A stretch of DNA of 60,708 nt from an uncultured Bacteroidales bacterium (lineage in GTDB: Bacteria; Bacteroidota; Bacteroidia; Bacteroidales; Paludibacteraceae), in NCBI GenBank assembly GCA_902799185.1, contig CADBZO010000006.1, positions 1 to 60,708 on the forward strand, given 5' to 3'. A program made the translations under genes and the position numbers. The notes beneath the pieces were generated by a model that saw nothing but the letters and a program-made list of their open reading frames with translations, was not told where the DNA came from and ran no database searches. Positions 24,844-60,205 of the stretch are shown in pieces; positions within the stretch are counted from its first letter, which is position 1, and the number at the start of each line of letters is the position of its first letter.

Positions 24844-26466
24844 ATGAAAAAAATTCTTGCTACCCTGTGTATATTATTAGGTATGACGATACCTGCTTCT
24901 GCCGTGAGCTATTGTGCTTCCACTTCGTGGGGCTATGCCGGGACGTCCGTCACGGGCGGCGGCAACGCCACGCCAATGCCTGTGACGAACGAAGACGAGC
25001 TGAGCAAAGCTTTGAGCAAGAGCGACCGCGTGATTATCATCGCGCAGGACATCACCGTCACCAGCCATATCAGCACGGACAAGGACAACCTGACTATCCT
25101 GGCTCTGCCGGGCAAGCGGCTCATCTCCAAGCAGCAGAACAAAGACAACTCCGGTATCCTGTACCTCAAAGGCAACAACCTGCTGCTGCGCAACCTGACG
25201 TTCGAAGGTCCGGGCGCGTACGACGTGGACGGATGGGACAACCTGTGTCTGGACAAAGCCACCAACGTATGGGTGGACCACTGCGATTTCCAGGACGGAT
25301 GCGACGGCAATTTCGACATCAAAGGCAAGTCGGACAACGTCACGGTGACGTGGTGCCGTTTCCGCTATCTGAAAGCGCCTAAGGCGGGCGGTTCGGGCGG
25401 TTCGAACGACCACCGTTTCTCCAACCTGATAGGCTCAGGCTCAAGCGATAAGCCGGAGGACGGGACGTATAACGTCACCTACGGCTTCTGCTGGTGGGAC
25501 GAGGGCTGCAAGGAGCGCATGACCCGCTGCCGCAACTGCGAGCTGCATTTCCTCAACTGCTACTGGAACAGTTCCGTAGCGAACTACTACGTAGGTCCCG
25601 AGAACGCGAAATGCTATTTCGAGGGCTGCACCTTTGCCGGTAAAGCCAACAGCGCCAAAGGAATATGGAGTCCGTTCAGCGGCTCCACCAACTACTGCAC
25701 CTTCGTCAACTGTACGGGTAACCTGCCGTCCAACACGGCGACCGCCGTTGCCGCACCGGTCTACAGCTACGACAAGCTGTCCGCCGCTACGGCGAAGAAC
25801 TACGTCACCCATGCCTGCGGCGCAGGCGCCACGCTGACCGTGACCGGCAAAGCCGCTGTCTCTTCCTCCTGCGACGGCCAGGATGAAGGCCAGGGCGGCG
25901 GGCAAGGCGGAGCCGTCTCCGGCGATTGCTGCATCGCCCTCAGCCTGGGCGAAGAACCCACTACTGCCAACGGCGGCATCCCTGCGGCTTTCAGCCAGGT
26001 GGCCGTCACTGCCAGCCTCAGCACCGACGAGAGCAAAGGCTCCGGATGGAAACAAGACTACCTGAACATGGGCGCAAACAGCGACTACGTGACTTTCGAT
26101 TTCTCGGCATACAACACTACTATCGTGTCCGTCTCGTTCGACGTCACCATCCCCAACTGGGCGGACACCAAGAACACCGTTGCCTACCATTGGGACAGCG
26201 GCGAGGAAAGCCGATACACCATCAGCAGTTCCACGAAAGAGACGGTCTCACTGACCGCCCCCGCAGCCGCCAAGTCGTTCACCATCCGGCGTTCCGCCAG
26301 CACCGGCACACGCCTCACGCAGGCATGTTTCACGCTGAAAGCCACCACCACGGCGCTGGACAGCCCCGTACAAGAAACGCCCGCGCGAAAAATCATTCGC
26401 AACGGGCAGCTTCTTATTCTCCGTAACGGGAAGGCCTACACGCTCTCCGGCGCGGAAATACCCTAA
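24844..26466 (+). CDS. Secreted pectate lyase, PL1-like, with C-terminal sorting motif
   Basis: 540 residues. Signal peptide MKKILATLCILLGMTIPASA. The right-handed beta-helix region has ITVTSHISTDKDNLTILALPG, NLTFEGPGAYDVDGWDNL, WVDHCDFQDGCDGNFDIKG (Ca-binding Asp cluster, about 143-159), SNDHRFSNLIGS and GCKERMTRCRNCELHFLNCYW (candidate catalytic Arg about 225-230). A Gly/Gln linker near 345 leads to a beta-rich module, and the end is RNGQLLILRNGKAYTLSG, the motif shared by six exported proteins here. It cleaves polygalacturonate by beta-elimination outside the cell. The last 219 nt are overlapped by the convergent aldo/keto reductase frame. Confidence 0.92.
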   Translation: MKKILATLCILLGMTIPASAVSYCASTSWGYAGTSVTGGGNATPMPVTNEDELSKALSKSDRVIIIAQDITVTSHISTDKDNLTILALPGKRLISKQQNKDNSGILYLKGNNLLLRNLTFEGPGAYDVDGWDNLCLDKATNVWVDHCDFQDGCDGNFDIKGKSDNVTVTWCRFRYLKAPKAGGSGGSNDHRFSNLIGSGSSDKPEDGTYNVTYGFCWWDEGCKERMTRCRNCELHFLNCYWNSSVANYYVGPENAKCYFEGCTFAGKANSAKGIWSPFSGSTNYCTFVNCTGNLPSNTATAVAAPVYSYDKLSAATAKNYVTHACGAGATLTVTGKAAVSSSCDGQDEGQGGGQGGAVSGDCCIALSLGEEPTTANGGIPAAFSQVAVTASLSTDESKGSGWKQDYLNMGANSDYVTFDFSAYNTTIVSVSFDVTIPNWADTKNTVAYHWDSGEESRYTISSSTKETVSLTAPAAAKSFTIRRSASTGTRLTQACFTLKATTTALDSPVQETPARKIIRNGQLLILRNGKAYTLSGAEIP

Positions 26467-27433: not shown

Positions 27434-29743
27434 TTACAATTTGATATTTATAATTTGCGGAGTGGTGAGACAACGGGAGTCAGGGGCTATCCAGACCATG
27501 AACTCCGCCTCGTCGGTATCGAACCACACACGGCTGTTAAGTCCGTCATGCGCCTCGTGCCAATACCCCAGCTGCTCCGGCGTGAGGGTGAAAGAGACCG
27601 TACGGCTCTCACTGGCCGGGATGAAGACTTTCTGAAAACCTTTGAGTTCGCATATCGGCCGTACCAGATCGCCGGAGAGCTGGCGGACGTATAGTTGCGG
27701 TGTCTCATAGGCATCATACGAACCGGTGTTGGTGACGGTGCAGGAGATGGAGAGCTTGTCTATCTGCGGTGTGCCGTACTCGAAGGTGGTATAACTCAGT
27801 CCGAAGCCGAAGGGGACGAGCGGCTCCGTAGGGGTCTCCAGCCAATAGGACGACTGGCCGATAGAGAACTGGGGACAGCCGATAGGGATGGAGTCGATGA
27901 GCATGGGCGGGTCATATGACGGCCGGCCGGTGTTATGCCGGTTGTAATAGAGCGGTATCTGACCCACCGTCTTCGGGAAAGTCATCGTCGTCTTGCCGGA
28001 CGGTACCGCCTCGCCGGTGATGAGCCGTCGGAGTGCTTCACCCGCCATCGTACCGCCGTGGTAGGCATAGAGCACCGCCGAAGCCTGCTCCATCTGCCGG
28101 CCGATAGTAAGCGGTCTGCCCGCCATGATGATCAGGACGACAGGCTTGCCGGTAGCCGCCAGCGCATCCATCATCTGCGCCTGCGCTCCGGGCAGGTTGA
28201 GATCCGTACGGCACCGTGCCTCACCGGAGAGGATCGCCTCTTCGCCGGCGAAGAACAGGATCACGTCACACTTCTTAGCCGCCTCTACCGCCTGCCGGAT
28301 ATGCGACAGGTCCTTGTCGCGGCTATAGGTCAGGCCGGGTTCAAAAGTAACCGTGAACGGAGCATGGCGGGTTGCGGCCTGTTCAAAGGCCATGCGGGGC
28401 GTGACGGAGTGCGCCGGTTCGCCGTCGAAGATCCAAGTGCCTAACTGTTCCTTGGGCTGGTCCGCCAGCGGACCGCATATGAGTATATTTGATATTTGAG
28501 ATTTGGGATTTGCTATTTGGTTATTCAGGGGCAGGACACCGTCGTTCTTGAGAAGAATAGCGGACTGTACCGCCATCTCGGTAGCGGTCTCCAACGCCTC
28601 GGGGCTGTAAGGCTCCGGACCGTTCTCCGGCACGTAGGGGTTGTCAAAGAGCCCCAGACGGTATTTGAGCCTCAGGATAGAGCGCACACAGTCGTCTATC
28701 TGTTTCTCGCTCACCCGCCCTTCTTTGACCAGCTCCGCCAGGTAGTCATGGTAGATATTTCCCTGCATGTCCATCTCCATGCGGGCGTTGAGGCATCGGA
28801 GAGCCGCCTCTTTCTTATCCGCACAAAGGCCGTGGGGTACGAGATCCGAACCGGAGCCCCAGTCACTGACGAGCAAGGCGTCCGAATCCCATTCACGGCG
28901 TAAAATATCTATATTCAGATGGGTATTGGCGGAGGAAGGGAGTCCGTTGAGGTCGTTGAACGAACACATCACGCTCATCGCCCCGGCGTCCAGTGCAGCC
29001 TTGAAAGGCGGCAGATAGACGTCACGCAACTGTGTCTCCGGGATCCATGTGGTGTTATAGTCGCGTCCGCCCTCCGTAGCCGAATAGCCGGCGAAATGCT
29101 TCACGCAGGCAGCCATTCCAGGTACCATTTGGTCATTTACCATTTCTTTATTCACTTCGTTCATACGATCTGCTTCGCTGTATGGGTCATTTTGGTAGCC
29201 ACGGACAGTAGCGGCACCCATGACGGAGGTGAGGTATGTATCCTCGCCGTAGCCCTCTGCCACACGTCCCCATCGGGGGTCATGCGCCACGTCCACCATG
29301 GGCGAGAAGGCCCAGCGGACGCCCTCTGCCACCGCCTCCTGCGCCGTCAGTTGCGCGGCATGCTGCACCAGCTCCGGGTTCCAAGCCGCAGCCTGGCCCA
29401 GCGGTATGGGATAGATGGTACGGAAACCGTGGATCACATCACGCGCCGCCACCAGCGGGATACCCAGACGGGTCTCCTCCACCGCCATGCGTTGCAGGCG
29501 GTTGACCTCTTTGGCACCTACGATATTGAAGACCGAGCCTACCCTGCCCTCCCGGATCAGTGCCTCTTTCTCTTCGGCCGACCAGGAAGGGTCGAGCTGG
29601 TTCATCTGCCCGATCTTCTCCTCCAGCGTCATACGGGAGAGGAGGTCGTCAATAAAACGGTCTTCAGCGCTCTTATGGGAGCACGCACAGACGGCCATCA
29701 AGAGTATAGACAGCACCGTTGCGCGAAATGTATATCTGGCCAT
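27434..29743 (-). CDS. GH3 beta-glucosidase lipoprotein (BglX-like)
   Basis: 769 residues. The lipoprotein signal ends LLMAVCAC. The GH3 N-terminal barrel has DVIHGFRTIYPIPLGQAAAWNPEL, FSPMVDVAHDPRWGRVAEGYGED, VKHFAGY and the nucleophile motif LLVSDWGSGSDL (Asp 294). The C-terminal sandwich and FN3-like domain (FGFGLSYTTFEYG, LYVRQLSGDLVRP) follow. It probably releases glucose from beta-glucan oligomers in the periplasm or at the outer membrane. Odd: the stretches ADRMNEVNKEMVNDQMVPG (188-209), PKSQISN (near 430) and the last residues IINIKL are translated repeats. Its first 71 nt overlap the GH81 gene in another frame. Confidence 0.94.
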   Translation of the reverse strand: MARYTFRATVLSILLMAVCACSHKSAEDRFIDDLLSRMTLEEKIGQMNQLDPSWSAEEKEALIREGRVGSVFNIVGAKEVNRLQRMAVEETRLGIPLVAARDVIHGFRTIYPIPLGQAAAWNPELVQHAAQLTAQEAVAEGVRWAFSPMVDVAHDPRWGRVAEGYGEDTYLTSVMGAATVRGYQNDPYSEADRMNEVNKEMVNDQMVPGMAACVKHFAGYSATEGGRDYNTTWIPETQLRDVYLPPFKAALDAGAMSVMCSFNDLNGLPSSANTHLNIDILRREWDSDALLVSDWGSGSDLVPHGLCADKKEAALRCLNARMEMDMQGNIYHDYLAELVKEGRVSEKQIDDCVRSILRLKYRLGLFDNPYVPENGPEPYSPEALETATEMAVQSAILLKNDGVLPLNNQIANPKSQISNILICGPLADQPKEQLGTWIFDGEPAHSVTPRMAFEQAATRHAPFTVTFEPGLTYSRDKDLSHIRQAVEAAKKCDVILFFAGEEAILSGEARCRTDLNLPGAQAQMMDALAATGKPVVLIIMAGRPLTIGRQMEQASAVLYAYHGGTMAGEALRRLITGEAVPSGKTTMTFPKTVGQIPLYYNRHNTGRPSYDPPMLIDSIPIGCPQFSIGQSSYWLETPTEPLVPFGFGLSYTTFEYGTPQIDKLSISCTVTNTGSYDAYETPQLYVRQLSGDLVRPICELKGFQKVFIPASESRTVSFTLTPEQLGYWHEAHDGLNSRVWFDTDEAEFMVWIAPDSRCLTTPQIINIKL

Positions 29744-32700
29744 TCTTTATAAATTTGAAATTTGAGATTTGAGATTTGAGATATGCTTCTTCGATATCGG
29801 TTATAATCGGGTCGCAGAGGCCTTCTCCATAGACCTCCAACTCCCACAGGGACGCACCGTAGCCGGTGTTACGGGTCTTGCAGAAGATGCGCACAAACTG
29901 TGCCTCCACGGGTTCGTTATTGATGCGTATATCGTGGGGCTGCGTGCCGCCCGTAGCGCCCGTGACGGATTTGACGGTCGTATAGTTCTCGCCATCGGAG
30001 CTGACCTGGATATCGAACGAAGTAGCATAAGCGTTCTCCCAGATGAGCCGCACTTGCGTCAGGAGGTAACAATCCTCCAGATCGACCGCTATCCACTCGT
30101 TATCCTGGAAGCGGCTGGACCAGCGTGTGTCCATATCGCCATCCACAGCTTTTGGCGCTGCCGTTCCATCTCCTTCGGCTCCGGAGGCCGTTGCGGGTTT
30201 ATGGAGCGCGAGGTTCACTTCCTCAAACGGCAGGATGTGCACAATCGCCGTGCCGGTTCTCTCAAAGCACGGGAAGACGAGTTCGTGATCGCCCACCTGG
30301 GCGGCGAGATAAACGGAGCTGCAGGTATCCATGACGTCGCCAAACTGATTGAGGATGGAGACGACGAAAGTCTGCTGCGTCCCTATCGGCATGGTCACTT
30401 CTGCGGGTGTCACCTCTGCCGTAGCAGCCATCTCGGTCTCCATGACGATGATCGTCAGAGACGCTGAGCAACCGCCGACGGTTCGGGTCTCGGTGAAGAG
30501 GCCGTAGTCGGGGTATGTCTTCTGCTCCGAAGAGGTGGAGATGATTGCTCCATTGAAGCTATACGCCGTTGTGGTGAGGGTGGTCGTCTGCCCCTGCTGA
30601 AGCACCGTGTCGGACGCGGAGAGAGCTACTGCAAAGACTGTTTCCGGGTCGCCGGTCAGCGGTCGTCCATATGCCTCCAGTTCATAGAGCGAAGTACCGT
30701 ATTGCGTAGCTCGCTGGAGCCCTGTCAAGCGGATATATCGGGCGCGAGTGGGGCCTACCTCCATCCCCTCCCTAAAGGGAAGGGAGATTCTTTCTACACC
30801 GCCGGCAGAAGCGTAGGTAGCGGTATGCCAGGTCGTGCCGTCCGACGAGAGTGCGAGTTCGTATTCGGACGCAAAAGCTGTCTCCCAACGCAGGATGAGA
30901 TGGTCGATAAAACATACCTCGCCCAGATCCACCATCGCCCATTCTCCATCGTGATGCGTCGATCCCCAGCGTGTGTCCGTCTTGCCGTCCGTGAGATTTG
31001 CTGCCACACAACCGGCGTTCTCAAACGAAGAGACCGTCACGGGTTTATGCAGCGCGAGGTTCGGGTACGGCAGATCCCAAGCCATCGGGTCGGGTTCAAT
31101 CGTCTCTTCTTCATCTTCGATGGTCGTGATTGTACGGGTCTCGCCACTGGAGATCAGCGTCAGACCATGCGGCACAGTTACCGTAGTGTCCTTTGCTCCG
31201 AAGAAATGCACGGAGAGCGGCGTAGAAGCCACATTATAGACTGCGTATGTCATGCGTCCGCTGAGAGTGTCCGTATAAGCGCACGCCATCGGATGCGAAG
31301 CAAAGATATCATACCGTTTCTCGCCCAAGCCCTTATGCGAATGCGCGAGCCAATAAGTGATGCCGCCCGTGTCGGGGTTCTTCGCCAGCGCCTTTCCCAT
31401 CTGATCCATTCTGTCCCACACATGAATCGCCGAATCGGCATCGAAGAGCGAGAGGTACGACAGACACACATTGCCCAGACCCGACTCATCACCCAAACCG
31501 CCTTGCGGGGCTTCGTAGTTGCCGACTTCTTTGGTAGCGTACATCTGCGTGTAGTCCCATTTCGCGAAAGGCAGGTCCTCGCTGAAACAGTTGGTTAGGA
31601 TAGGCGAGATCGGCAGCCATTGGATGGAATGCATCCAAACGGGGTCGCCGGAGAACCATGTCCACCAACCCACACCCTGCATCGTCAGGTTGCAGCAATA
31701 AGGGTGGTTATATTTGGTAAAATCGATATTGCGACGTTTCTTGTCAAACCAATACTCCGCCGTAGCGCGCGTCTCGAGGGTATAACCCATTATACCGGCT
31801 TCGAGCATCTCTTGGTCTTGCAGCGCAGCGCCCAAAAGCCATACGCCGCCCCATCCTTGTATCGCTTCCGAAGAGGACTCCTGGCCGTTGCCGTTACCGG
31901 CATTACCCATTCCTCCTGCAAACGAATGTCCGCAGTAAGGATTAAAGGTCCGGAACCAAGGCTCGTCCGCCGAACGCTGCCAGTTGGCGTAATCGCGTGC
32001 CACCTCCCGTGCCATCGGACCATACTGAGTCCGGAAATCGTCATCCAGCATGCACAGCAGCGCCGACGCATAGACGAAATAACCGTAATGGAAATGGTGG
32101 TCATTGAAGGTATCCGAGTCATAAGAAGGATCCATGCCGATGAGTGCGCCCCATTTCGGGTAACGCGCAAAATAGAACCGCTCTTCGCCCGGCGTGAAGG
32201 TGTACCAGTTGACGAGCACTTCTTTCAGACGATTCTTCGCCATACGGAAAGTAGCCGTATCGCCCATCTGCAGCGCAAAAGTCATGTAATGCGCCATCTG
32301 CGTCAGCCCCTTTCCGCCCCAATAGGTATCGCCACCGAACGAACCACGCTTGGCATAATCGGCATTGAGCGCTGCCATACGGGCTTCGGAGAACTCTTCT
32401 CCCCACTCCATCGGAGCCGGGAAGAACGGCAGGAAGGGATGCACCGGATACGTAAACGTAAAATCGTTTCCCGCGTACAGTCGCATCGTGCCGCGAGGAG
32501 AGAGATAAGTACCATTGACCATTTGGTCATTTACCATTTGGCCATTTGAGTCATAGTAATGATGCGGCAGAAAGGCCATCAAAACATTTACCATTTGGTC
32601 ATTTACCATTTGGTCTGTACTGACATGAAAAGTCGTCGTGAGCGACGAGGTAGCGGCATTATATGCGTACGAGAAAGTGGTCTTACGCGGGATTTGGAAC

Positions 32701-33401
32701 GCATATGGCGCACACGCCGCAGCGTCTAAACCATCCGTAAGCAAAGCGATTGTGAGTTTGTCCGTGTCCGTAAAGACTGCATATCGGGCGCTATTGGGAT
32801 TGGTAACCTGCATCGTGATTCCGGACGCCTCAAGCCAGACGAGCGGCGAACCTTCCATACACGTCACGCGCACCCATACATCGCCGTCCTGCATGATAAA
32901 CGACATTGCGAAATCCGACCAACTATCAACGAGCGCTTCCTCAAAAGCCGCTTTCTTTCCGGTAGCCGTATTGGAGAACGTCACCGAGAGCGGTGTGTCC
33001 CATTTGACCTCACATCCCGTGGGCTCCCAATAGGACGGATAACCAATCGTCAGTTCACCGTCTTTTGCCTCTGCCCAACCGGGATAGAACCACAGTTTGC
33101 CGGTCCAGGTATTGACGAGTGCGTGCGTCCACCAATCATTCGTCGGCAGCGCCAGAGAACCCTGTTGCGAACCATCGGGAGTGCCCAACCGCGCCAAGAG
33201 CGAGTCCGGCAGATAGAGTCTGCGATGCTCCATCTGGTACGCCTGACAACCGCCGTGAGCCGAGGTATGACTCTTGGACAGCGGCACATACGAAGCATAC
33301 GAACCCGCGCCTACAGAGACAGGCGTTTGGGCGAAAGAGGAGACCGCTACCGCTGAAAGAAGAAAGACCGCTGCGCTCAAAGACAAAAGACTCCGTTTCA
33401 T
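29673..33401 (-). CDS. GH81 endo-beta-1,3-glucanase with two discoidin domains and sorting motif
   Basis: 1242 residues. Signal peptide ends SSFAQ. An N-terminal beta-sandwich (about 60-330) leads into the GH81 catalytic barrel with DHHFHYGY (434-441) and QESSSEAIQGW (507-517). Then come a discoidin/CBM32-like domain (NLALHKPVTVSS...LYELEAYG), an Ig-like domain and a second discoidin (NLALHKPATASG...LWELEVYG). The end, KNGQIYISRNGAVYTLDG, is the shared sorting-like motif. Two translated 15-bp repeats (NDQMVNDQMVN) sit at about 262-273 and 287-296, and a palindrome gives LPFREGM. It would make internal cuts in beta-1,3-glucan outside the cell. The last 71 nt also encode the GH3 signal peptide. 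Confidence 0.93.
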   Translation of the reverse strand: MKRSLLSLSAAVFLLSAVAVSSFAQTPVSVGAGSYASYVPLSKSHTSAHGGCQAYQMEHRRLYLPDSLLARLGTPDGSQQGSLALPTNDWWTHALVNTWTGKLWFYPGWAEAKDGELTIGYPSYWEPTGCEVKWDTPLSVTFSNTATGKKAAFEEALVDSWSDFAMSFIMQDGDVWVRVTCMEGSPLVWLEASGITMQVTNPNSARYAVFTDTDKLTIALLTDGLDAAACAPYAFQIPRKTTFSYAYNAATSSLTTTFHVSTDQMVNDQMVNVLMAFLPHHYYDSNGQMVNDQMVNGTYLSPRGTMRLYAGNDFTFTYPVHPFLPFFPAPMEWGEEFSEARMAALNADYAKRGSFGGDTYWGGKGLTQMAHYMTFALQMGDTATFRMAKNRLKEVLVNWYTFTPGEERFYFARYPKWGALIGMDPSYDSDTFNDHHFHYGYFVYASALLCMLDDDFRTQYGPMAREVARDYANWQRSADEPWFRTFNPYCGHSFAGGMGNAGNGNGQESSSEAIQGWGGVWLLGAALQDQEMLEAGIMGYTLETRATAEYWFDKKRRNIDFTKYNHPYCCNLTMQGVGWWTWFSGDPVWMHSIQWLPISPILTNCFSEDLPFAKWDYTQMYATKEVGNYEAPQGGLGDESGLGNVCLSYLSLFDADSAIHVWDRMDQMGKALAKNPDTGGITYWLAHSHKGLGEKRYDIFASHPMACAYTDTLSGRMTYAVYNVASTPLSVHFFGAKDTTVTVPHGLTLISSGETRTITTIEDEEETIEPDPMAWDLPYPNLALHKPVTVSSFENAGCVAANLTDGKTDTRWGSTHHDGEWAMVDLGEVCFIDHLILRWETAFASEYELALSSDGTTWHTATYASAGGVERISLPFREGMEVGPTRARYIRLTGLQRATQYGTSLYELEAYGRPLTGDPETVFAVALSASDTVLQQGQTTTLTTTAYSFNGAIISTSSEQKTYPDYGLFTETRTVGGCSASLTIIVMETEMAATAEVTPAEVTMPIGTQQTFVVSILNQFGDVMDTCSSVYLAAQVGDHELVFPCFERTGTAIVHILPFEEVNLALHKPATASGAEGDGTAAPKAVDGDMDTRWSSRFQDNEWIAVDLEDCYLLTQVRLIWENAYATSFDIQVSSDGENYTTVKSVTGATGGTQPHDIRINNEPVEAQFVRIFCKTRNTGYGASLWELEVYGEGLCDPIITDIEEAYLKSQISNFKFIKNGQIYISRNGAVYTLDGRLCVLP
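29751..29785 (+). repeat. Heptamer array (AATTTGA/GATTTGA) inside the GH81 3' end
   Basis: Four to five 7-bp units. They encode the KSQISNFKF segment of GH81 and lie directly upstream of the GH3 start codon on the minus strand. Confidence 0.85.
32513..32616 (+). repeat. 15-bp repeats read in frame inside the GH81 gene
   Basis: CATTTACCATTTGGT-type words occur at 32513-32553 and 32584-32616. They encode NGQMVNDQMVNG and DQMVNDQMVNV. The same word occurs at 8395-8430 (polA), 29128-29150 (GH3 gene) and, inverted, 23047-23081. Confidence 0.85.
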
Positions 33402-40503: not shown

Positions 40504-41570
40504 TATTCTACGATTTGTCCGGCTATTGTATATACTTTTTCGCCGCGGATTATAAGCAGCTGCCCGTTACGAAGAACTTTGGTACTTGGTACTTCTAATC
40601 TCCTTGCGGTCGAACGATCTGCTTCGCGGTATAGGTCACTTGGTACTTCTTCTATTCCCTGCGTCTTCTCCGGCTCTATCGCATCGGAAGGAGAAGGGCA
40701 TACAAACGTTTCGTTGGCGTCGCCCCGCTGGTAGATACGTATCCAGTCTATATACATCGACTGCGGACCGTTGGCAAGTGCCGTAATCTTGTTGATCTCC
40801 CATATCTGCGGGAAGTTACCGCCTACCGCGAGGTTGGCGATGATGAAGTTCGGTTTGCCGAACACCAGTTGCCGGTTATAATCCGCGTCATCGTTGGGGA
40901 CCAGGTCCGCATGGAAATAAGCCTTGTTCTCCGGATGCGCATCTTTATCCATATACATGTCAATCGAAGTGGGAGTCCAAATCATCGTCACGATATGGAA
41001 AGTGTCTTGCAGCGAATAAAACCATTCTGATGCTTGTGCATCGCCCAAAACGGTATTCCACGCCGAACCGACATGCATGGCGCCATTGAAATAGCGATCC
41101 TGACGGCCGTTGAAACCGTCTTTATGCCCCATCTCGATGATATCGGTCTCGCCACAACGCGGCCAGCCTACCTCGTCTATATTCTCGCCTAACTGCCAGA
41201 AAGCAGGCCATAAGCCGTTCGCCGTATTCGGGAGTTTGATACGCGCCTCTATCTTGCCGTAAGTATAGTATAAGTTATGCTTGCTGTTCACGCGCCCGGA
41301 AGTACAGCCCTTGCCGTGATAGCTCTCCTTGGTAGCCGTGAGGATGAGGCACTGCTTGCCGGTGGTGGGTTCAGCGCCTACGGAGACTCCTTTCTCGCAA
41401 TAGTACTGCAACTCGTTGTTTCCGCCTCCGTCGCCGTTGACCTCAATATTCCATACCTTGGTATCCAATGCTCCGTCGGTAAAATCTTCGTTCCAAACGA
41501 GGGTGTAGTTTTGCGCTTTTACCATGGTCGCAAGACAGCTTATAATCAAATATGTATATAATTTATGCAT
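40503..41570 (-). CDS. GH16 laminarinase-like protein with C-terminal sorting motif
   Basis: 355 residues. Signal peptide ends MVKAQ. GH16 core with LVWNEDFTDG, YGKIEARIKLPNTANGLWPAFWQLG and catalytic GETDIIEMG (Glu 141, Asp 143, Glu 146), ending IDWIRIYQRG near 285. A linker follows that includes SDLYREADRSTARRLE, the translation of a repeat shared with the GH3 gene, and then LRNGQLLIIRGEKVYTIAG, the shared sorting-like motif. Unlike its two GH16 neighbours it lacks a lipobox, so it is probably exported by the T9SS route instead. Target: beta-1,3-glucan. Confidence 0.93.
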   Translation of the reverse strand: MHKLYTYLIISCLATMVKAQNYTLVWNEDFTDGALDTKVWNIEVNGDGGGNNELQYYCEKGVSVGAEPTTGKQCLILTATKESYHGKGCTSGRVNSKHNLYYTYGKIEARIKLPNTANGLWPAFWQLGENIDEVGWPRCGETDIIEMGHKDGFNGRQDRYFNGAMHVGSAWNTVLGDAQASEWFYSLQDTFHIVTMIWTPTSIDMYMDKDAHPENKAYFHADLVPNDDADYNRQLVFGKPNFIIANLAVGGNFPQIWEINKITALANGPQSMYIDWIRIYQRGDANETFVCPSPSDAIEPEKTQGIEEVPSDLYREADRSTARRLEVPSTKVLRNGQLLIIRGEKVYTIAGQIVE

Positions 41571-50599: not shown

Positions 50600-53500
50600 T
50601 TATCGGATGATTTGTCCGGTTACCGTATAGCGTACATTGCCGCGCTCGATGAGGAGCATGCCGTTGCGAAGTATCTTGGTTGCCTGCACGTGGTCTCCCT
50701 GTACATTCTCCACATTCTCAACAGCGGTGGCGTCAGAAGAGGTCGCAACGAAGAGCACATTCTGGATGAAGCAGATGCCGGCCAGGTTGTTGCAGTTGTA
50801 GAATCCTATCTGCTCGCAGTTGGTTTTGCCGTTGTCTTTGATATCCAGTACGATGTGGTTCCATTGACCGGCCGTGAGTTCGAACGCCGTAGAAGCGGCT
50901 CCTACGCCGATTACCTGAATATCCAGTTTGGCATTAGCGGCTGTCGGATAGACATCCATCTCCAGCGCGTTGTACGCCGTGATGTCGGTGGGTGCGAAAG
51001 CCAGACCGAAGCAGCTGCTCGGGGTAGCGTTCGGAGTGATGCAGAGCGCCTTGCTGTCCGCGGTCAGCAGACCTTGCGCGAGAGCCGGGCCGGCATACCA
51101 GTCCTGGACACCGAAAGCGAGGTTGGTGTATTTGTCCGAGAAGAGGCTCAGTACCTTGTCCGCCTCATAAGCCGGAGCCGCAGCGGGAGCCGGAGCCTCC
51201 AGCGTCTTGGCAGAAACGGTGACAGCTTCGGTGGCATTGCCTTTCTCGTCCTTGGCTACTATGGAGAAGGTATATTCGGTATTGGCCTGCAGGTTCGGCA
51301 CTACCACATTGACGGTTGCCCCGCTTGCCCCTGCGGCGGATGCTACTACCGTCTCGCCGTTCATGACCACGTAATTCACTACGCCCATGTTATCCGTTGC
51401 GCTGAGAGCCAGCGTCACGTCGAAATAACCGGCGGTAACCATCGAGCCCGTCAAGTCAGCCGGAGCCTCGTTGTCCTCCAGCGCGGTCGTGCGGTAGAAG
51501 AAGGCGTTGCCTACCCAGAACGTCAGGTTAGCCGCATTGTCGATCTTCACCTGATAGACATTACCCCAGTTGGTCACTTTTGCGAACTCACCCTCGTTCA
51601 GCGCCAGGTCGATGCTGTTCCACTGCTGACCTTTCAGGTTAACAAACTCACCAATCTCAGGGTCATTGCCGGTATTAGCTGCATTGCGGCAAATAGGTAC
51701 GATACGGAGCGAAGCGTCCTTTTCAATCCAGATGTCGTAGTGCAGTTTCTCCATTGTCATAGCGTTGATGGAGAAACCGTCCGTACCGAAATAGCCGGTA
51801 GCGGGAACGGCGTATTTCTTGCCGTACTCCTCTTGTGCGTAGGCGGTACCCGAGCCCCAGTCCTGGAAATTGCAATTGGCGTTATAAGTCGGGCTGTAGA
51901 TAGCCTTGACCTGTGCTGCCGGCCATTCCGGAGCAGGAGCGGCTGCCTGCGGCGCGAAATAATATGCATCCGTCTTAACCTGAACTTGGATAGTATTCGA
52001 TTCGTTCAATGCGGCATCCAGCGCACTGATTGCGAAGTTATAAGTCGTACCGCCCTCAAGACCATCAATCGTGATCTTGCCCTCTACCGGAGTTATCTTG
52101 CGGTCAATAGAATGCGTACTCTCAACAACATGATATTTGGTAACAGCGTTATTATCCGTTGCAGCTACTGCAATCACAACCGACGTACCGGTCTTGCTGT
52201 CCAATTCCGCGCTAACCAATACCGGTGCTTCATCATCGTCCGTTGCTACATATTCCGTTCCGAAAATACGAACCTCTTTCAGACGCAAGAAATTGGCGGT
52301 CTTTTCCAGCGAACGAAGACGAACATAACGGCCTGCTGCATTCACTACATTGAACTGCTCGCTGTTATTACCGGCCGCAACATCGTTCAGTACGGTCTCC
52401 CATGCCTCATCATCAGCTTTGTTGCTATCCGACGGAGCATCGTCACGAACCTGAAGAATATACTTCTTCGATGCCGGATCTCCCCAAACTACATCGATAG
52501 CAAACAAGGTGTATTTATCGCCTAAGTCAACGTACCACCACTCTTCGGTAGCCGGACGGTTAGCATAAGTAACCCAAGCCGTATTCGTATCACCATCATT
52601 AGCCTTGTCAAAGCTCTCTGCCGGGTTGTTGTCATAATAACCACCCTCGCAAGGCTGATTCAATGCCAAATTGGCACTCGGTACACAATATACCTCAATC
52701 TCCTTGCTGATCTCACCGCTTTGTGCAGTTACCGTCACTACGCCCGGCTGCGCTAAAGTAAGCACACCCGCGCTAATCGTACCTGCGGATGCGGGTGATA
52801 TAGATAAGGTAATGTCGGCATCAATATCGTGGTTCAACTGATCCTTACCTTGTGCTGTCAGCGTAATCGTCTCACCCACTTGTGCATAGACAGCTGAAGC
52901 ACTCAGTACAATCTTCGTCAACTCCGGAGTAATCTTACAAACCCCACCGTAAGTATATTCGAATTGCAGCGTCGGCCATGCATTGTTGTCCTTGCTGGTC
53001 GTATATTCGATAATGGCGTTCACATGAATCTTTGTGCCAAAGACAGGAGCTACTACACCCGCTTTCGGAGTCAAAGTAACCTTGTTGCCTGCGCACGAAT
53101 GATCAAAATAAGTAGCTGCCGGTTCGTTGGTGTCGCCCACAGTGAACTTATCAATGGAAATACCATTGCCACGGAAATGGGTAGCTGCATCATTGCCTCC
53201 GAGAGCCTCGCTGATAGTAATAACGACTGAACCATCTGCCTTGGTCTCCCATGTAAAAGCAGCCGTCGTATTACCGCTACTCATTACTTCGCCGCAATAC
53301 TCCGAATTAATGTCGCTGTCTAATTCACCCGTCTCGCCTTTGTCATTATAGACATTCAGACCAAAACGAACCGTCTCACCGTTCTTAATCAAAATCTCGG
53401 TGTTTTTAGCCGTCAGAGCAGACAGATAGAATACCGCTCCCGCGCCATCCTGTTTGTACTGAGCTTCGTTAGCCACCAATACGCCGTTGAAATAAACGGC

Positions 53501-54978: not shown

Positions 54979-57900
54979 TTATTTAATCCATTGTCCTTGC
55001 GCGTTATACGTGCGTCCGTCGCGTATAATAAGGAGCTGTCCGTCACGAAGCACCTTTGTACATTGTACCGGGGCGCTTTGTACATCACTGATGCCTGTAG
55101 CTATTTCCGTCTCTTTGTTATTGAAGATCACTCTCGCACGGGGTGCATTTGCGCCGCTGGTCGAGAAGTCCAGCACGAAATAGCCACGGAGCGCATTCAT
55201 CGGCTGATCGTTTCGCAGCACCGAAGCGGCATAGAGGTACTGGTCGCTACCAAGCACATAAGCGTTAGGGATGTTTTTCAACTCTTCGCCTGTGGTCGGT
55301 GCATAGATGCCGTAGTACTTAGCATAGCCGTCAGCAGGCTCATGAAGGTCTTTGTTTACAGTCACGCCCGTAAAGACAGGATTAGTGACATCAGCGCTCG
55401 GCGTATAGAGGTAAGGCACACCGGCTTCGATAGCCTCAGCGTCCACGAAGTTGATCCGCAGATCGCCGTTGTCTTTGAGGTAGGAGTTATTGAGTTTGGT
55501 TAACTGCCCCGGCAGTTTCTCTGCCCGCTGCTCCGCCTCCACACCAAACGGCAGCACGAGGGTGTAGAGGTTACCGGCGGTGAAGGAACGACCCAGAACT
55601 CCGATGACTGTTCGACCATCATAGGTTGTAAGGATAGCGCTGTTATCTTTCTCTTCGTCAACAGCAACTGCCTGCGGCAGAGGATCGTTCTTAAAACCTA
55701 CGGTGTAGGTGAAATTGTATGCAGGAGCACCATAAGATTCACTCGCGAAAGTTAATTGGAGATGAAGCTCTGTGCCGTCTGTGTAAGTGCCTGCTGTGGT
55801 AAAGGTGCCAGTATGGTTTTCTGCATCATATCCACTAAATGCTCCTGTCACATCACCCTCAATACCACTAACATATCCAACTACGTTTTTATCAGTAGTC
55901 ATCGTGAATGTTAGTTTATGGTCCGTCCCGCGTGTAATAGAATAGGTATATGCGGTCAAACCTTCTAGCGGACTAACGGTACTATAACCATACCAGGTAG
56001 CAGGTGTTATAGAACCTACTACCTTTACAGTGCACGTAGCTGACTTTGTACCATCAGCAACAGAAGTAGCAGTGATGTGAGCAGTTCCTTCAGCGACTGC
56101 TGTTACATAACCCGTGTTAGACACAGTTGCTACTGTCTCATTATCCGAAGACCAAGTAATAGACTTGTTTTCTACAAATGAAGGAAGAACTGTTGCGGAT
56201 AATTGCAATGTCTCACCCTTTACAACGGTTGCTGCCGCATGAGAAATCTCAACGGACTCAACAGATGAAGAGGGTCTTTCGTTTGAATCACCTACGCGAT
56301 AAGTAGTCGGGACATCAATTCTTGGGCCTCCAAAGAAGAAGAATGGATTAGAAGATGGATTAGAAGATAGTTGAGCACCTTTTTCGTAGGTTTCTTCTGT
56401 AGTAAATGAAACTGCGCGATTGACATCATCATAACCGGTAAGTGAATGCCATCCATTATCTCCGTTCACACCGTCATATACTTGTTTTACTCCTATACCG
56501 GAAGCATCTCCTCCAAAGTAAACTTTATAAGTCAGAGTTTTGTTGACGTTTCGAGTAATAGACCAGATTACATCCATGTCTAGTTTATCACCGATCCACT
56601 CTGCACTTCTTTGGATACCCCACCATGTTTTGTCAGTGATAGGTTCAACAGTCAGTTCACAAGTAGCAGAAACATCGGAGCCATCATTTGCCGTAGCGGT
56701 AATACGAGCCGTTCCGGCTGTGTGGGTTGTAATAACGCCATCGACTACAGTTGCTACACTTTCTGCATTCGAAGACCAAGTGATGGATTTATCAGTTGCA
56801 TTAACAGGAGCCACACTTGCTGTCAGTGTCAGCGATTCTCCGAGTTCTATTGTTGCGGATGTGTGATTAAGTGTAATAGATTCAACATTTACACCTGCAT
56901 CTACATGCTCCAGTCCAAAGACTTGGAAATCATACATAGAAATACCATATTGAAGAGACGGTGTACCATACCCTTCGCGTGCCCATACTCCTACATAACG
57001 GCAAGGGACTGAATTTGAGAAATTATTATAGTACTCGTAATTGAGAGATCCATCATTATTCGAAGCAGGATAAGTATTATATGCGTTGATAGTAGTCCAT
57101 GTCTCTAAATCTGTAGATACCCGGATGTCATAATCGTTTGGACGTGCAGTTTCCCACTTGATTGCAATTTCCGCTATGTCGTATATTGCTTCATTGCCCA
57201 AATCCACATACCACCAATCTTGGAAATCAGGGTTTGCTCCATTATTATAGTGAGTTGCTCCGTCAGATCCCCAGCGGTCGCCAAGATCAGCATTATTTGC
57301 CTTATATGCATTGTCATTATTATAGCCTGCTGTAGCCGTCTTCCCAAATGCCAAGTTGGCACTTACCTCATTACGCACGTTTATAGTAGCCACTTTTCCA
57401 CCGCCGGAGACAGTAATTGTAGCGTCACCTTGCTGTGCCGGAGTATAAACGCCGGCTGCAGTAATCGTTCCTGCACTTCCAGGAGAAATAGCATATTCCG
57501 ATGTTAGGGCAAAGTCATTGCCTAATTGGTCTAATGCTGTTACTGCAATCTGATAATCGGCACCTATCGTACAGAACTTGCCGGGGAGAGAAGCAGAATA
57601 GGTAGTCAGCACCGGAGTAGTGTTATACATGACGCGTAGTTCCCAAAGAGAATAACCATAACCAGTTCCGCGCTCTGTACCATAAATACGCAGATATTGC
57701 GCTACATATTTTCCTCCAAGGTCTATTGTTTGGGTGTTAGGGAACGGGTCTCCCAATATTTCGCTGACATGCTTAATAGTAAAGAAGTTCACGCCGTCAT
57801 CTGATACTTGGATATCATATGTCTTGATATATGCTCCTTCGTGTACCAACTGAACGGAATTAAATGCCTTACAAGCACCAAAATCTACACATATCCATTG

Positions 57901-59284: not shown

Positions 59285-60205
59285 TTATTTGATTTCCACA
59301 CCAAGGGCGTTGTAACGGATGCCGTTCTTGAGGATAACGATCTGGCCGTTCTCGATGACCTTATGCGTTTTCGCGGAAACAGAGGCATTGTTAATTCCCT
59401 GTCCCGGATTATCGCCCGGTTGCTCTCCCGGTTGGTCTCCGGGCTGGTCTCCCGGCTTGGTGTTGCCGGCACCTACCGTATAATCCACGTCAATACGTGC
59501 CGCATTGCCGGTATAGGCGATGAGGAAGAAAATCACCGGTTTGGAACCGTCGGTATAGGTCTCCTTGGTGGTAAAACGTGCCAGCATACCCTGCATCGGG
59601 AGCGTGGTATAGACATCGTTGATACTTACTTGCGGCACTACGCCTGCTATCTCGCTTGACCAGCTGATCTCAAAGGTCAGCGTGGCATCGGCGTTGCGGG
59701 TGATGGACCAGTTGAACGTCACATCCGATCCGGCTACCGGTTTTACCTCGCGGCCGTAGAATGTAGCGGGCGTGAGGTCGCCCGGCTGGGGTTCGTCACC
59801 CGGTTCGTCACCCGGCTCGTCCTGGGAAATCTCGCCCGTACCATCGGCATAGAAAACTTTGCAATCGTAGGTCACACCTCCGGCCTCTACCGACACTTTG
59901 GTCTCCTTCGCTGTGAACGCCGAGAGATACATCACCATCCCGGCACCCTCGATCACATACTTACCGGTTGGCAAGTCACAGGAAGAGATGCCTGCCGGGA
60001 AATTGGTATAGATACCCGCCTCCGCGGCAAAACCCGGCTTCTGGATGTTAATCACGTTCTGCCCAAACGCAGCCTCCACTTTGTACTTGTTGGCATACGC
60101 TCCTTCGCCGGCACCGTCTGCCAACCATGCAATCGCACTCCAGTCCGTAGCGAAAGACATCAGACCGAGAGAAAGAATGGTCAAAAGAGAGAAAATTTTC
60201 TTCAT
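59285..60205 (-). CDS. Secreted two-module protein with PGD repeats and sorting motif
   Basis: 306 residues. Signal MKKIFSLLTILSLGLMSFA. Module 1 (about 20-125) has DWSAIAWLADGAG and NVINIQKPGFAAEAGIY, as in the neighbouring large proteins. An acidic linker with repeated DEPG joins module 2 (about 148-250: ATFYGREVKPV, FNWSITRNADATLTFEISW, ARIDVDYTVG). A second linker of PGDQ/PGEQ repeats leads to ENGQIVILKNGIRYNALG. In effect it is a minimal version of the giant protein and useful for defining both modules. Function unknown. First gene after the promoter at 60241. Confidence 0.82.
   Translation of the reverse strand: MKKIFSLLTILSLGLMSFATDWSAIAWLADGAGEGAYANKYKVEAAFGQNVINIQKPGFAAEAGIYTNFPAGISSCDLPTGKYVIEGAGMVMYLSAFTAKETKVSVEAGGVTYDCKVFYADGTGEISQDEPGDEPGDEPQPGDLTPATFYGREVKPVAGSDVTFNWSITRNADATLTFEISWSSEIAGVVPQVSINDVYTTLPMQGMLARFTTKETYTDGSKPVIFFLIAYTGNAARIDVDYTVGAGNTKPGDQPGDQPGEQPGDNPGQGINNASVSAKTHKVIENGQIVILKNGIRYNALGVEIK

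Follow-up and report, generated by a model that had tools for sequence, protein, structure and literature searches.

The 3' end of a GH81 gene in an uncultured Bacteroidales bacterium is also the beginning of a GH3 gene read in another frame, which raises the question whether a single stretch of DNA is kept for both readings or whether the two genes meet there by accident. The window analysed here is the whole of contig C6 (60,708 nt), one of the 55 contigs that make up a 2.43-Mb draft genome. The GH81 gene (29673..33401, minus strand) codes for 1242 residues comprising a GH81 domain, two F5/8C stretches, a linker and a C-terminal motif; Pfam recognised the GH81 C-terminal domain and the two F5/8C stretches, and the N-terminus was of Sec type as judged by eye. 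The second gene (27434..29743, minus strand) starts 71 nt inside the first, in phase +1, and codes for a GH3 beta-glucosidase-like lipoprotein of 769 residues (Pfam GH3 N, GH3 C and Fn3-like), for which BglX was the top-scoring model, yet under the BglX cut-off. Both reading frames and their overlap (29673..29743, minus strand) are as claimed in the first-pass annotation of this DNA, which proposed that two export signals are dual-coded there. Our preferred reading, to which we assign a probability of about 0.88, is that of an old overlap on the same strand, in phase +1 and under selection, with the GH81 3' end serving at once as C-terminal motif, GH3 start region and lipoprotein signal.

All features of the junction lie on the minus strand. 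In the GH81 frame, the overlap covers the codons from NGQ to VLP plus the stop (NGQIYISRNGAVYTLDGRLCVLP*), while in the GH3 frame it reads as the signal from MARYTF to CAC (MARYTFRATVLSILLMAVCACSHK). It contains most of the GH81 C-terminal motif (29676..29756, KFIKNGQIYISRNGAVYTLDGRLCVLP) and the entire GH3 lipoprotein signal. The GH3 ATG (29741..29743) is built from the motif codons AAT GGC (Asn-Gly), and the motif Lys codon AAA (29754..29756) stands at -13 to -11 relative to that ATG, where it corresponds to the Bacteroidota A-12/A-13 element. The GH3 lipobox V-C-A-C (Cys21) is found at 29681..29692, and the GH81 stop TAA (29673..29675) falls within a His-Lys pair of the GH3 frame. Directly ahead of the start region lies A/T-rich, repeat-like GH81 linker DNA (29757..29790), which is unpaired in the predicted fold. 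The linker repeat ATTTGAGATTTGAGA was observed in GH81 at 29750-29792, with a similar stretch in GH3 at 28484-28526, and several relatives displayed comparable A/T-rich linkers ahead of the tag. DNA repeats were also seen in GH81 at 32513-32628 (CATTTACCATTTGGT, translated MVNDQMVNDQMVN).

The C-terminal motif is a tag of about 25 residues with a consensus, drawn by eye, of about K[VF][LI]RDGQLYILRDGKxYNxxGQxVK. The claim that it occurs on five other proteins of the window held, since five other gene ends matched the motif profile at E < 0.05 in C-terminal position (26383-26460 on the plus strand; 40509-40580, 50606-50680, 54991-55056 and 59300-59368 on the minus strand); a sixth, partial match at 2913 had an E value of 0.92. 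Among the 41 genomes searched, the motif was present in all 25 of the genus and in none of 16 from other families; at E 0.001, each genome of the genus had 9 to 78 matches. The models of the type IX type A C-terminal domain (CTD), TIGR04183 and PF18962, matched neither the whole GH81 protein (E up to 0.001) nor two motif-bearing tails (E up to 10), and profile comparison of the motif with the type A CTD, of which it might be a shortened form, gave a weak probability of 11.8.

These negative matches, together with the confinement of the motif to one genus among the genomes searched, favour the best surviving alternative, namely that the motif serves as a C-terminal tag of some other kind, or closes the protein structurally; the idea of two export routes would then be wrong, whereas dual coding as such would stand. 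We consider this unlikely, though with a real share of the probability. It has to be set against the presence of SprA in 24 of the 25 genus genomes (including the one studied here) and against the nature of the four motif proteins examined with Pfam (GH81, a pectate lyase, a CBM26 protein and a beta-helix protein, the last with a sub-threshold match), which are all of the extracellular polysaccharide-enzyme type. Likewise, counts of type A CTDs and of short tags were inversely related in a set of 16 genomes of the genus (rho -0.54, p 0.03), as if one kind of tag replaced the other. The GH81 motif is probably an outer-membrane sorting tag of type IX-like character, and it may constitute a short type IX signal, SprA being present and canonical tags being fewer where the motif is common.

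GH81 homologs were searched in 40 relatives and the genome itself, in 178 genus genomes and in a wider contig search (27 loci). The named relatives are Paludibacteraceae/Bacteroidales genomes, whose stated hosts are all ruminants. Loci whose junction DNA was identical, one genome occurring in two collections, were counted once, which left 36 distinct GH81 3' ends. A GH81 match at E 1e-100 or better was displayed by 46 of the 178 genus genomes, and 13 of these 46, read in addition to the first set, yielded three duplicates, one locus cut by a contig end and nine new junctions, all nine without GH3. The GH3 gene overlapped GH81 in 21 of the resulting 45 distinct junctions, a count that overstates independence because the sequences are related (GH81 identity across the 21 was about 64-100%). 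The overlap measured 71-80 nt and was in phase +1 in every case. In two junctions GH3 was adjacent with a start of its own: in L056, where GH3 carries a signal of its own, this start is placed on the GH81 stop (ATGA), and in L072 it lies 49 nt downstream of that stop. The dual reading was accordingly found in 21 of the 23 junctions having GH3 next door. The remaining 22 had no GH3 within the 1.5-4 kb covered downstream, where the gene could sit further off.

Two findings were named in the first-pass annotation as speaking against its proposal. One, homologs with the motif complete and GH3 starting downstream, does exist in L056 and L072, outside the overlapping group only; these arrangements are read as an older state and do not refute the overlap at the present locus. 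The other, GH81 ending before the motif, was seen once, in the distant L305, which has another tail; the other 44 of the 45 GH81 proteins run through the motif to their end (the motif of L307 being read by eye).

The GH3 signal, assessed by pattern and hydropathy, has the n-region, the hydrophobic core and the Cys-terminated lipobox of an SPase II lipoprotein. A hydrophobic stretch was present in all 21 overlapping GH3 proteins and the strict lipobox pattern in 19, the exceptions being L079, which reads WCSC, and L066, with LCSF. Since Phe replaces the lipobox Cys in the latter, its lineage has probably lost lipidation, yet kept the overlap.

The motif is also where the start site of GH3 lies. 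In all 21 overlapping junctions, the DNA from the GH81 stop to the GH3 domain was free of ATG, GTG and TTG start codons. The GH3 ATG sits in the codons of the motif pair [N/D/H]-G, with the motif Lys codon at -13 to -11. L074 has Glu-Gly instead; GAA before Gly cannot yield the usual ATG, which there lies one codon upstream, the Lys position being moved by one codon as well. This Lys codon was AAA in 21/21 GH81/GH3 overlaps and in 23/24 pairs of a second kind, lyase-like/LRR (see below); in non-overlapping motif genes of the genome it was AAA in 32 of 80 (80 of 82 were located). An A at -3 was displayed by 19/21 and 22/24 of the two kinds, respectively. In Flavobacterium johnsoniae, A at -13, -12, -6 and -3 are described as positive elements (Baez 2019, PMC6847099, as far as its account of start contexts goes); position -6 was T in all 45 sequences examined here, as opposed to the A of the published context. 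The predicted fold leaves the upstream linker unpaired and is overall no stronger than those of shuffled sequences.

The codon ahead of the motif Gly ended in T in 20 of the 21 overlapping junctions (L074 being the exception) and in 7 of 72 non-overlapping motif genes with N, D, H or Y at that place. Because a T ahead of Gly is required for the ATG, this T excess follows from the overlap, and it shows a codon choice that has been bent. The converse idea, that non-overlapping genes shun AAT or GAT before Gly to avoid false starts, was not supported, as the second [N/D]G of the motif was equally T-poor (6/64).

Constraint on both frames at homologous GH81-GH3 junctions was the check suggested in the first-pass annotation, and synonymous changes were held down in both across 10 sister pairs. 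The pairs, chosen by closeness and not from a dated tree, comprised 20 of the 21 overlapping sequences; differences were counted at codons with the same amino acid and compared with the rate over the whole alignment of the same pair. In the GH81 frame, 19 synonymous differences were observed for 49.1 expected (z -5.5), and in the GH3 frame 21 for 52.6 (z -5.8), i.e. about 0.4 of expectation in either frame. None of 1190 and none of 405 other windows of similar size with enough data were as low as the overlap, the GH3 windows being taken from the first 470 codons, or fewer where the DNA ended. Difference rates at GH81 codon positions 1, 2 and 3 were flat within the overlap (0.166/0.128/0.174) as against 0.094/0.064/0.312 upstream of it, which comes close to the earlier statement that any change there affects both proteins. 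In the motif of six non-overlapping pairs, which are more diverged, these rates were 0.367/0.300/0.600. Selection on GH3 only is disfavoured, since it would free GH81 position 1 (the third position of GH3), and this position was not free.

A complementary picture was provided by junctions without GH3. Among the 21 that could be judged, the GH81 motif was kept in 20 (read by eye), the ATG in five, and the ATG with a +1 frame open past the GH81 stop in only two (L052 and L300). The distant relative L300 displayed an ATG and a partly hydrophobic +1 frame open through the motif and past the stop, with no GH3 within 2.6 kb behind GH81, so that a reading of this sort does not require the gene to be present. 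In the tree of GH81 from the first 36 junctions, the overlap label changed at least seven times, five of the changes being forced by well-supported branches. Relict-like signal readings in the +1 frame were recognised in L052, L053, L080, L047 and perhaps L004, and these point to losses of GH3 rather than to repeated gains, as the apparent direction of this history. Taken from sequence comparison, dual coding is supported by its conservation, by synonymous suppression in two frames and by how the +1 frame has fared in junctions lacking GH3.

The recurrence of the arrangement in other gene pairs, like the start-site part, is missed by the first-pass annotation. The genome contained 97 matches to the motif profile, of which 87 were examined (L093 among them has 78 bases after it) and ten left out as lying at contig ends, partial or weak. 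Overlaps of more than 30 nt seemingly needed by the downstream gene occurred in five of the 87, all in phase +1. Other pairs of this sort were a sub-threshold Pel9A-like beta-helix protein followed by a BspA-type LRR protein on contig C8 (the lyase-like/LRR pair), a CBM26 protein with an alpha-amylase-domain protein behind it on C7 (both by Pfam), and two paralogous 38-nt overlaps on C13 in which the n-region alone is common to both frames. Apparent overlaps at L099, L101 and L169 were discarded since a more convincing start, whose N-terminus resembles a signal, lies further along, as was L121, whose frame is short and without signal character.

The LRR protein was matched in 118 of the 178 genus genomes, and among the 30 best loci of these the lyase-like/LRR overlap was present in 25 and absent in three (L187, L189 and L190), while L178 and L200 could not be judged. 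In L190 an ATG also lies inside the tail, and the signal starts behind it. A non-overlapping in-frame start exists in four of the 25 overlaps, too late to leave a signal. With L179 excluded as a near copy of L177, 24 sequences in 12 pairs gave 34 synonymous differences for 67.8 expected and 26 for 57.1 (ratios 0.50 and 0.46), the first gene being covered for at most 420 codons and the second for at most 400. The lyase-like/LRR pair shares both the architecture and the two-frame constraint of GH81/GH3, and selection on both frames was found for the two of them. For the amylase pair, where architecture alone was considered, the overlap occurred in 4 of 13 loci, and in each of these the frame ran on into the amylase without a stop; L211 kept a relict, its new start lying in a different frame. 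Two genomes (L131 and L251) carried a 26-nt overlap in phase +1 between a tag-bearing gene and its neighbour, which we take from their sequences to be hydrolase-like and GH130-like, respectively.

Deep overlap is not a general habit of the genus: genomes G007 and G012 had none with a signal peptide among the 30 best motif ends of each (60 of 132 matches, ATG starts only, some near contig ends with little DNA behind them); one of the 60 overlapped a GH130-like gene by 26 nt. Nor is the +1 frame of the motif signal-like by nature, its hydropathy being no higher than that of other coding DNA of the same genes; an ATG with an open +1 frame was displayed by 15 of 87 motifs and 76 of 344 stretches of other coding DNA, without enrichment.

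A further alternative is that the overlap is an ordinary neutral one, the GH3 start inside GH81 being a compositional accident without lasting selection on two frames. Bacterial genomes commonly have long overlaps in phase +1, which have been explained by composition, without selection, according to the general treatments of Sabath 2008 (PMC2542354) and Fonseca 2013 (PMC3887535). When synonymous codons were drawn at random with the GH81 tail protein held fixed, a placed ATG and an open +1 frame arose in about 27% of cases, so that a single genome would prove little, and L300 carries such a reading without GH3. We nevertheless regard neutrality as improbable, considering that synonymous suppression in two frames is confined to the overlap in two gene pairs and that +1 readings have decayed where GH3 is absent; it may still account for the origin of the overlap. 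A programmed frameshift producing one GH81-GH3 fusion, with an incidental signal-like reading, would agree with the constant phase and the constrained overlap and is highly improbable in view of the hydrophobic stretch (21/21) and strict lipobox (19/21), the ATG moved by one codon in L074, the A-12/A-13/A-3 start context, and relatives with plainly adjacent genes (L056 and L072) or without GH3.

Under the selected-overlap reading, the GH81 3' end would combine three roles, as C-terminal motif, as translation start region of GH3 and as source of its n- and h-regions and lipobox. The start region would consist of AAA at -13 to -11, A at -3, the unpaired A/T-rich upstream DNA and the ATG inside [N/D/H]-G, and we infer that a ribosome initiates GH3 there independently while other ribosomes complete GH81. 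A GH3 gene lying just behind GH81 probably lost its own start and took one in the GH81 tail, conceivably by deletion or start-codon replacement; the overlap would then have been kept by two-frame selection and have disappeared in several lineages along with GH3. More tentatively, the tag of this genus might be a ready-made gene start, from which a downstream secreted gene losing its own start takes both start site and signal peptide: the spacing K-x3-[N/D]-G would set AAA at -13 to -11 and place the ATG for the Bacteroidota ribosome. If true, selection then locks the pair, binding the production of two surface enzymes to one DNA stretch.

Same-strand phase-1 overlaps as outlined in PMC2542354 and PMC3887535 resemble the present ones in their long phase +1 configuration, in an ATG derived from NAT-GNN and in a possible origin by start codon replacement. 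Unlike the overlaps outlined there, those studied here oppose a probable sorting motif to a complete signal peptide with its start site, and two-frame constraint was measured in unrelated pairs. The type A CTD of type IX secretion (TIGR04183/PF18962), as presented in PMC10202324, is likewise a conserved tag of many proteins in SprA-bearing Bacteroidota genomes; the tag described here differs by its length of about 25 residues, by matching none of these models and by its restriction to one genus among those searched. The Kozak-like context of Bacteroidetes, in the outline given by Baez 2019 (PMC6847099), shares A at -13, -12 and -3, whereas in the present pairs the motif Lys codon of the upstream gene supplies the adenines at -13 to -11, and -6 is T. 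Titles and abstract openings in the literature yielded no description of a dual-coded export signal, which is not proof of its being unpublished.

The dozens of related junctions with or without the downstream gene constitute a natural experiment, where two-frame selection is visible when both genes are present and looks relaxed when one is gone. They illustrate a route by which a secreted gene may take over both its export signal and its start site from a neighbour, and they call for caution, as the export of one gene product can be broken when the end of another gene is edited or annotated. Finally, ruminant-gut Bacteroidota carry a short C-terminal tag that was unmatched in the curated libraries searched and may represent a short type IX signal.
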